DNA of 64,000 nucleotides from Gammaproteobacteria bacterium (GTDB taxonomy: Bacteria > Pseudomonadota > Gammaproteobacteria > Pseudomonadales > Pseudohongiellaceae). Positions 37,497 to 40,770 of this stretch are shown in pieces. The notes under the pieces are model-generated. The model did not search any database, was not told where the DNA came from, and worked only from the letters and a program-made list of their open reading frames with translations. Within the stretch, counting starts at the first letter, position 1, and every line of letters starts with the position of its first letter. Both the position numbers and the translations under genes were made by a program. The stretch covers positions 1 to 64,000 of the forward strand of contig JAURWS010000012.1 of NCBI GenBank assembly GCA_030654835.1. Direction: 5' to 3'.

Positions 37497-37533
37497 TGAG
37501 AATCATTGTACAGATGAGAATCATTATCATCAA
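37497..37533. promoter_or_regulatory. Fur box(es) upstream of the TonB receptor
   Basis: TGAGAATCATT at 37497-37507 and ATGAGAATCATTATCATCAA at 37514-37533 match the Fur consensus (GATAATGATAATCATTATC) in overlapping hexamers. They lie 65-100 bases upstream of the receptor start codon in the direction of its transcription. This is consistent with repression under iron-replete conditions. Confidence 0.85.
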
Positions 37534-37607
37534 TAGCGAAAGTTAAACTTTTCTGATCTGCTATATATCTCCAATGTGTCTGAGACCTAGCTTTAATATG
37601 TGCAGTA

Positions 37608-37744
37608 GTAGAGACGCGCGCTGGGTGCGGCCACGTCAGGACACGCCTGCGAGCACATCCGTGTGGGCTCGGGTCGCGCCATCCATGGCGCTCCACGGTC
37701 CTGCCGTGGCCGCACCCGGCGCGCGTCTCGGCACGGGGAGTGCC
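37608..37744. repeat. structured repeat L (palindromic arms, conserved core)
   Basis: Outer arms 37611-37635 (GAGACGCGCGCTGGGTGCGG on to CCACG) and 37705-37729 (CGTGGCCGCACCC on to GTCTC) pair almost perfectly. Inside is a smaller pair CAGGAC (37637-37642) with GTCCTG (37698-37703) and two hairpins, CGAGCACA...TGTGGGCTCG and GCGCCATCCATGGCGC. The whole folds as a three-way or cloverleaf-like structure. It ends with GGCACGGGGAGTGCC. Its core occurs again, inverted, in element R on the other side of the glycosylase-like gene. No known repeat family is recognised. Confidence 0.85.
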
Positions 37745-37750
37745 ACGTCC

Positions 37751-38314
37751 TTAGAGTTTTGAGAGCCCAAATGAACTCTTGTTCAGTCTCAAGAACTCGA
37801 ACAATGCACTATTGTCTGTCACTGTTCCTGGCTGGTTTTGGGCCTGTTGGCCGGTATGGTGTCCTCCATAGATGCGTGCGGTGCCAACCCTTGTTGAGAA
37901 GTAGACAAGAAGGTCTCTTGCAAGCGCTCCCATGAGAACAACGTGTTTGAGATTGGGGGATATTTGTCGGAGGAGATGATCGTGAAGCGGCTTCGCTTCC
38001 GTAACCATCTTGCGAGTCGGCTTGTGTCCGTATAAGCGCCATGGTATGGCGTTCCAAACCAATACTCCGGGGAGTTCGTTATCATCGAATCCGAGCCGAA
38101 CAAGACGAAGCAACTCACTCGCAGTTGGATCTAAGTTGTGCATTGAGACGCGATCAATTTGCGGGCCTGGCGTCTCAAGGACTATCAGCGTGTGAGGTAG
38201 ACGATCAGTCCGCGGGCAAAAGTTGGGAAAATGCTTGTCTGGGTATTTTTCTTTCCAGATGTTCAAGAGATTTTGTAACTCGATCTGAAAATTTGACTCA
38301 TCGGTACCAGGCAT
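37751..38314 (-). CDS. uracil-DNA-glycosylase-like protein
   Basis: 187 residues. The pattern follows a divergent UDG-superfamily group: VLETPGP (residues 45-51) as motif A, HNLDPTASELLRLVRLGF (59-76), WNAIPWRL (87-94), KHVVLMGALARDLL (123-136) and GGHHTGQQAQNQPG (150-163) as the C-terminal motif B region. Catalytic details cannot be settled, since there is no classic GQDPYH. I use the ATG at 38314 because GGGAG lies at the right distance; the frame runs 19 codons further to an ATG at 38371. Base composition is clearly lower in GC than the neighbours. It lies exactly between two structured repeats, which suggests a transferred cassette. Confidence 0.6.
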   Translation of the reverse strand: MPGTDESNFQIELQNLLNIWKEKYPDKHFPNFCPRTDRLPHTLIVLETPGPQIDRVSMHNLDPTASELLRLVRLGFDDNELPGVLVWNAIPWRLYGHKPTRKMVTEAKPLHDHLLRQISPNLKHVVLMGALARDLLVYFSTRVGTARIYGGHHTGQQAQNQPGTVTDNSALFEFLRLNKSSFGLSKL

Positions 38315-38411
38315 AATTCTTCTCCCAATGTCGTGCCAGACTACCACGAAATGTTTGTGCGGAATCTCCATCCAAGGTCTCGGTTCATGAGACTTGATAA
38401 CTACTGCAATC

Positions 38412-38598
38412 GTAGAGACGTGCCCCGTGCATGATCACGGCAAGACCGTGGAGCGCCAGGGCGGAAAAATGCTCCTGCATTTTCTGCACTCCCGCCCTCC
38501 ATGGCGGTCGGATGGCGCGACCCGAGCCCACACGGATGTGCTCGCAGGCGTGTCTTGACGTGATCATGCACGGGGCACGTTTCGGCACGCGGAGCACC
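38412..38598. repeat. structured repeat R, inverted-core copy of element L
   Basis: Outer arms 38415-38439 (GAGACGTGCCCCGTGCATGA on to TCACG) and 38559-38583 (CGTGATCATGCACGGGGCAC on to GTTTC) pair, although their sequence differs from the arms of L. The core (CAAGAC at 38441 with GTCTTG at 38552; GCGAGCACATCC-type hairpin; GCGCCA/TGGCGC hairpin) is the core of L in reverse orientation. The ends GTAGAGACG and CGGCACGCGGAGCACC are in the same orientation as in L. One hairpin is longer than in L because of an extra 45 bases or so. It ends six bases from the ygiQ stop. Confidence 0.85.
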
Positions 38599-38604
38599 AA
38601 AACC

Positions 38605-40770
<2,166 letters not shown>

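Follow-up and report, generated by a model that had tools for sequence, protein, structure and literature searches.

Known Csr/Rsm small RNAs come from a few dedicated genes and carry several motifs each, and integron attC sites are folded single-strand sites in which the sequence varies and the structure is kept, with conserved ends. Binding of RsmN and RsmA to ANGGA(N) in hairpin loops is reported in PMC3791407, and decoy RNAs of CsrA are described in PMC7366521 as exposing ANGGA. Motif and binding are not equivalent, because the Xanthomonas RsmA-binding RNA RsmU is described as still bound after its predicted GGA motifs had been changed (PMC7694677). REP sequences are defined in PMC6006769 as palindromes of 21-65 nt with a GTAG or GTGG tetranucleotide 0-2 nt 5′ of the hairpin.

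The window analysed here, a stretch of 64,000 nucleotides from a gammaproteobacterial contig (JAURWS010000012.1), holds two hairpins, L and R, which flank an open reading frame (Table 1). L and R are copies of a real, widespread structured repeat family that lies between the genes of many gammaproteobacteria. Copies were scored with a covariance model, R1, built from 27 intact copies of the window's own genome; strands are given relative to this model where stated.

Table 1. Positions in the window of the two hairpins, their parts and the DNA between them.
Feature	Position	Strand	Remarks
Hairpin L	37608..37744	-	strand predicted to fold (R1 strand is +); R1 score 99.7 bits
Outer arms of L	37611-37642 / 37698-37729		32 nt, 94% complementary
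Apex of L (conserved core), containing the two small hairpins	37640..37700	-	
Apical hairpin 1 of L	37654..37665	-	CAC-ACGGAU-GUG (CANGGANG), read from sequence
Apical hairpin 2 of L	37676..37691	-	GCGCC-AUGGAU-GGCGC (CANGGANG), read from sequence
Hairpin R, core inverted relative to L	38412..38598	+	strand predicted to fold; R1 score 79.3 bits
Outer arms of R	38415-38446 / 38552-38583		32 nt, 94% complementary
Apical hairpin 1 of R	38529..38540	+	CAC-ACGGAT-GTG (CANGGANG), read from sequence
Apical hairpin 2 of R	38453..38518	+	broken by a ~50 nt insertion, roughly 38460-38509
Cargo open reading frame	37751..38371	-	starts at an ATG and spans 206 codons; the 206-aa product was placed in no recognised family
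DNA with no equivalent in the near relative G010	37558..38600		G010 has ~160 bp with a different, REPIN-like repeat

Anatomy and covariation of the hairpins

A typical copy is ~117 nt long and consists of an outer stem of ~28-31 bp, shorter in some copies such as those of G246, followed by a conserved apex with two small hairpins that have a six-base loop each in most copies. The outer stem is different in most copies, and mostly unrelated among the copies of one genome, yet it is self-complementary. In an alignment of 27 copies (A1), 28 of the 31 outer pairs varied on both sides. On the R1 strand, 91.2% of the cells were paired and covariation was 0.660, compared to 0.146 with shuffled and at most 0.158 with slid partners; on the reverse complement, 94.0% were paired and covariation was 0.740, compared to 0.162 when shuffled. 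Because the 27 copies of A1 and A5 were retained from 41 pattern hits after leaving out those that carried insertions, had their arms swapped, met a contig edge or lacked a good end, as well as one false hit, these pairing figures describe intact copies.

The original prediction had seen in L and R the mark of selected secondary structure and had proposed a search for many copies with covarying stems. Far more than two copies exist, their outer stems pass covariance analysis, and dozens of covarying copies back the outer stem as a selected structure. The details it had read from the two elements were also recovered. The ends of L and R have the same orientation, GTAGAGACG on the left and CGGCACG(G/C)GGAG on the right in both, around cores that are inverted; the outer arms of each are self-complementary (Table 1); and the inner stem, taken on the R1 strand of either element, changes by compensation from CAGGAC/GTCCTG in L to CAAGAC/GTCTTG in R. 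The inverted core homology joins 37611-37684 with 38510-38583 over 74 nt (85% complementary), and folding of the 137 nt of L gave z = -8.3 on the minus and -8.9 on the plus strand.

R is longer than L because an insertion of ~50 nt sits in its second apical hairpin, where it disrupts the ANGGAN loop. ANGGAN loops are found in both apical hairpins of L and only in the first of R. A few other copies also have the insertion, and both hairpins of the corresponding cassette in the relative G012 contain it. On its opposite strand the insertion encodes a hairpin, in the window as well as at L009, L026, L027 and L121; in several copies this hairpin reads CATGGATG (CANGGANG) and resembles an inverted hairpin 2.

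Distribution, arrangement and possible exchange of copies

BLAST of the own genome with L returned 39 matches, L and R included, many of them as close inverted pairs, and R1 found 49 sites there (55 rows less 6 opposite-strand second hits of listed sites). The hairpin was carried by 31 of 57 relatives, own genome included, comprising every one of the 14 genomes of the own genus and, patchily, genomes from other genera. When 299 genomes of the phylum were sampled, with at most 12 candidates scored per genome, 19 matched, the own included (12 in the own order and 7 elsewhere in the class); all 19 belong to the own class, a result to be read with the share of the 299 outside this class, which is not stated. 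A core pattern run over named genomes gave at least 117 stretches, and the carriers among the 80 matches listed included Xanthomonas, Stenotrophomonas, Marinobacter, Shewanella, Alteromonas, Rheinheimera, Sodalis and Methylomicrobium. The window had no Rfam match at the gathering score, and 37500-38700 had none at E up to 5. The family was found neither in Rfam 15 nor in the literature searched, in which the S. maltophilia repeat TIR 1152 could be the same family.

Copies that neighbour each other within 1.2 kb were arranged + then - on the R1 strand, that is, with inverted cores, in 52 of 54 cases from six genomes, counted without second hits on the opposite strand and without one incomplete row of G012. 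Such pairs numbered 16 in G000, 15 in G012, 9 in G040, 7 in G010 and 5 in G054. G034, in which almost every copy is solitary, has just two cases of close neighbours, and these are the two exceptions. At the named loci the arrangement within 500 bp was mixed (21 +-, 6 --, 4 -+ and 3 ++), and arrays of the hairpin were found in a Saccharophagus contig and a Neiella contig. The stretch L350 2851-4170 (G246) contains six tandem units of ~227 bp that include the hairpin, most of them together with a GTAGGAGCGGCTTCAGCCGCGA-type REP; L186 3103-3754, from an uncultured Saccharophagus, contains four copies in the same orientation, ~180 nt apart and with AT-rich stems.

In 40 stretches of G040 and G034 the hairpins were intergenic with respect to predicted genes, and in G040 the distance to a stop codon was 10-30 nt for many of them. 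The same-strand contexts, tallied by eye with genes called by a simple codon model, reveal no orientation preference: sense and antisense numbered 5 each in G034, and 3 and 6, respectively, among the single copies of G040. The many G040 copies past stop codons, together with very stable stems, would suit a housekeeping structure at the DNA or mRNA level (a terminator, an mRNA stabiliser or a cruciform site) that has no dedicated protein partner. Against it speak the indifference to orientation and the strongly conserved loop letters, which such roles do not require, and we regard it as the least probable of the readings considered.

The gene between L and R had been called glycosylase-like. 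This reading is unsupported because searches with the 206-aa protein came back empty from Pfam, PADLOC, NCBIfam and PHROGs and produced no credible relative in the PDB; its single-sequence structure model (pLDDT 38.8) gave no usable fold. The suggestion of a defence-type cassette found no support in the same four databases. The open reading frame has a GC content of 0.486, compared to 0.603 for the window; a stretch similar to it occurs in 3 of 369 genomes of the class, own included, and the same protein is present in G012. Searches with the window cassette against plasmids and with one hairpin against phages gave no match.

The proposed search for an empty site was successful: the cassette is missing in the near relative G010 and present in G012, whose ygiQ genes are 93% and 96% identical to the own one, respectively. 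The G010 site, where the cassette ends and a target duplication would show, bears another repeat. REPIN-like doublets occupy the cassette-less site in G010 (L122 ~845-1005) and in G011 (L124), as if this were a spacer favoured by repeats. Beside glyA, in the orthologous stretches L009 1944-2748 and L137 10078-10611, the R hairpin is common to the own genome and G012, and the left hairpin and the intervening DNA differ between the two.

Open reading frames lie between hairpin pairs in the window, at L009 (a 165-aa protein whose one NCBIfam match scores far under the cut-off) and at L087. The protein enclosed by a G029 pair is of the DUF4357 kind and matches GIY-YIG weakly. Taken with the cassette-free site and the nearly uniform inversion of close neighbours, this is what the ends of a cassette-bearing transposon of another kind would produce, with the core as terminal inverted repeat, another transposase and varied cargo. 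Against this stand the many single copies (37 sites for 9 pairs in G040, and 77 rows without a +- pair in G034), the existence of arrays and the spacing of the G040 pairs, whose starts are merely 155-226 bp apart; a transposon of this type is therefore quite unlikely. The idea that L and R are the ends of a small cassette is supported by the absence from G010 and by the other genes found between pairs, but most examined copies are single or too close together for a gene.

Orthologous sites of the own genome, G012 and G010, recognised by shared 12-mers on both sides, allowed 36 comparisons, which are not independent since they stem from three genomes and one own site pairs with two G012 loci. 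At most 5 of 28 stem positions had changed on both arms in 21 of them, and 8-16 of 28 on both arms in the other 15. At sites with a replaced stem, the nearest 60 bp on one side had often changed too (identity down to about 0.72), and one site has a different stem in each of the three genomes (L016, L138, L301). The two members of one G012 pair have nearly identical stems, and copies with swapped arms occur in the own genome. A donor search for the replaced stems among 104 hairpins of the three genomes found few similar stems at other sites. Exchange between copies is the simplest reading of stem replacement; acting through the inverted arms and the flanks, it would replace and invert hairpins. 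The notion of a core-inverting element is supported in part, as inverted-core pairs recur and one orthologous site has an inversion between hairpin arms. At L024/L338 a clean flip was considered and rejected, as the inversion between arms there lies within a more complex remnant. On two different contigs, L017 335-395 and L028 123-181 have non-matching arms, and one arm of each is complementary to one of the other, a trace of either inter-copy recombination or assembly.

The predicted folded strand and its apical loops

Outer-stem mismatches on the R1 strand were asymmetric. A-C exceeded G-T by 75 to 27 in a set of 84 hairpins, each having 18 or more of its 25 inner positions paired, by 177 to 72 in 106 hairpins from named genomes and by 86 to 36 in 82 hairpins from relatives, with binomial p values of 2e-6, 2e-11 and 7e-6, respectively, all inflated by relatedness. 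The 84- and 82-hairpin sets overlap; the named-genome set (A3) holds 107 of 128 matches, with E up to 1e-7, less one duplicate, and set A4 includes at least one opposite-strand second hit (L063). The A-C mismatches of R1 become G-U wobbles on the reverse complement, and pairing and covariation therefore rise there; folding energy was lower on this strand in 24 of 27 copies. These statistics point to one folded strand, the reverse complement of R1. Mutation bias could also generate the asymmetry, and the effect would be expected for single-stranded DNA and RNA alike.

A special strand is also expected for ssDNA transposases, and the hairpin might be a REP/REPIN-type miniature element mobilised in trans by a Y1 (RAYT/TIRYT) transposase via an ssDNA hairpin, with the loop motif as a coincidence or a transposase contact. 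Its extragenic position, in G040 often just past stop codons, its occurrence as single copies and inverted doublets, the four Y1_Tnp genes of the own genome and the self-complementary, closely spaced TIR family that PMC3733652 ties to a Y1 gene in S. maltophilia all agree with this. The Y1 genes themselves do not: none of the own four adjoins a hairpin and at least three have other terminal repeats, and eight Y1 loci of S. maltophilia ATCC 700475 and [Pseudomonas] hibiscicola showed no clear copy (one place at 21 bits), the five of them scanned for repeats having their own. Moreover, Marinobacter salinexigens (L250) has a 102.7-bit hairpin and no Y1_Tnp match in its genome, and three own Y1 proteins compared with 80 named loci (up to 8 kb each) gave one match, more than 5 kb from its hairpin. 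Mobilisation by a Y1 enzyme is thus a possibility that we hold to be doubtful.

On the folded strand, the loop of hairpin 1 was CANGGANG in 104 of 106 copies from named genomes, a set fetched with a pattern that fixed part of this loop and left hairpin 2 untouched, and in 74 of 82 copies from relatives. Hairpin 2 presented ANGGAN in 88 of the 106 and 51 of the 82, leaving 18 and 31 without it. Within the 88 octamers of the named-genome set, A, G, G and A were invariant, the first N was U (46), G (34) or A (8), and the last was mostly U (78). In the structure drawn from covariation the apical loops conserve ANGGA, as in Csr/Rsm-binding RNAs, and the C-G closing pair and the SELEX consensus, RUACARGGAUGU, match as well.

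Energy folding of 27 single copies placed both apical closing pairs in the minimum-energy structure of 5 on the folded strand, where the mean pair probabilities of hairpins 1 and 2 were 0.12 and 0.48 and the mean unpaired probability of GGA was 0.59 and 0.72. The R1 strand performed slightly better (7 of 27; 0.35 and 0.70). Few copies form both apical hairpins in these folds because the two can pair with each other, as is also visible in the fold of L010; RNAalifold drew part of the junction differently from the covariation structure. The case for two apical hairpins comes from covariation (e.g. columns 65-76 and 66-75) and loop conservation. The two may be duplicates of each other, in which case their motifs would not be independent.

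CsrA is encoded in 56 of 57 relatives, including all 31 hairpin carriers, and G033, which has no CsrA, has no hairpin; this is a weak test because CsrA is nearly universal among these relatives. Three relatives (G041, G044 and G052) have 3-4 csrA genes but no hairpin. The csrA neighbourhoods of G050 and the own genome gave one 29.8-bit match, ~1.1 kb from the csrA gene in L370, and nothing else. G050 (L367-L375) has nine CsrA-family genes, eight of which are close paralogues with similar upstream sequences.

All in all, motif and strand statistics suggest a link to CsrA/RsmA, which single-copy folding does not back, and make the conserved loops probable candidates for twin CsrA/RsmA sites. Our preferred reading, to which we give a probability of about 0.4, is that L and R belong to a structured repeat that is dispersed and mobile-like and probably carries twin CsrA/RsmA sites. 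On the reverse complement of R1 both apical hairpins would present ANGGAN loops, a CsrA dimer could hold the transcript at the two sites, and the copies would act as scattered decoys or local regulatory sites for CsrA/RsmA. A selfish or domesticated gammaproteobacterial repeat that spreads in the form of a folded hairpin, whose transcripts titrate CsrA/RsmA at tens of sites in each genome, and whose hairpin exchange swaps whole stems in place between close species, is an unlikely extension. Should the loops bind CsrA/RsmA, the genomes concerned would contain dozens of scattered decoys or sites that studies of dedicated CsrB/RsmZ-type genes would miss; if stems are swapped whole and remain self-complementary, this would represent an unusual, testable mode of repeat evolution.

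Comparison with known systems

REP, REPIN and BIME sequences served by RAYT or TIRYT are likewise extragenic, multi-copy and palindromic, and occur singly or as inverted doublets. The present family differs in its two small apical hairpins, variable outer stem and conserved loops, and at ~117 nt it exceeds the length by which REPs are defined. By eye, GTAG stands near the hairpin foot in much of the own genus and is absent from this position in carriers such as L072 and L076. In contrast to REP/REPIN with RAYT, no Y1 gene was found beside the hairpin in the genomes examined, and a carrier without a Y1_Tnp match exists. The S. maltophilia TIR 1152, compared by description and not letter by letter, is likewise presented in PMC3733652 as self-complementary and multi-copy with short inter-copy distances, and as tied to a Y1 gene, whereas other repeats were seen at the Y1 loci of the S. 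maltophilia genome and the close relative analysed here.

Csr/Rsm small RNAs (CsrB, RsmX/Y/Z) and CsrA sponges share with this family hairpins that carry ANGGA(N) in their loops. The family differs from them in its dozens of dispersed copies, in having two motifs and a long variable stem, and in its lack of an Rfam match. Identity with the Xanthomonas RsmU, which lies in the 3′ UTR of comEA, was rejected, as three putative comEA loci (one per genome in three genomes other than X. campestris, chosen as the weaker HHH_3 hit) had no clear R1 match, one reaching 12.8 bits. Integron attC sites are likewise folded sites that vary in sequence and keep their structure; the hairpin family differs from them in that its apex is conserved and its basal stem varies.
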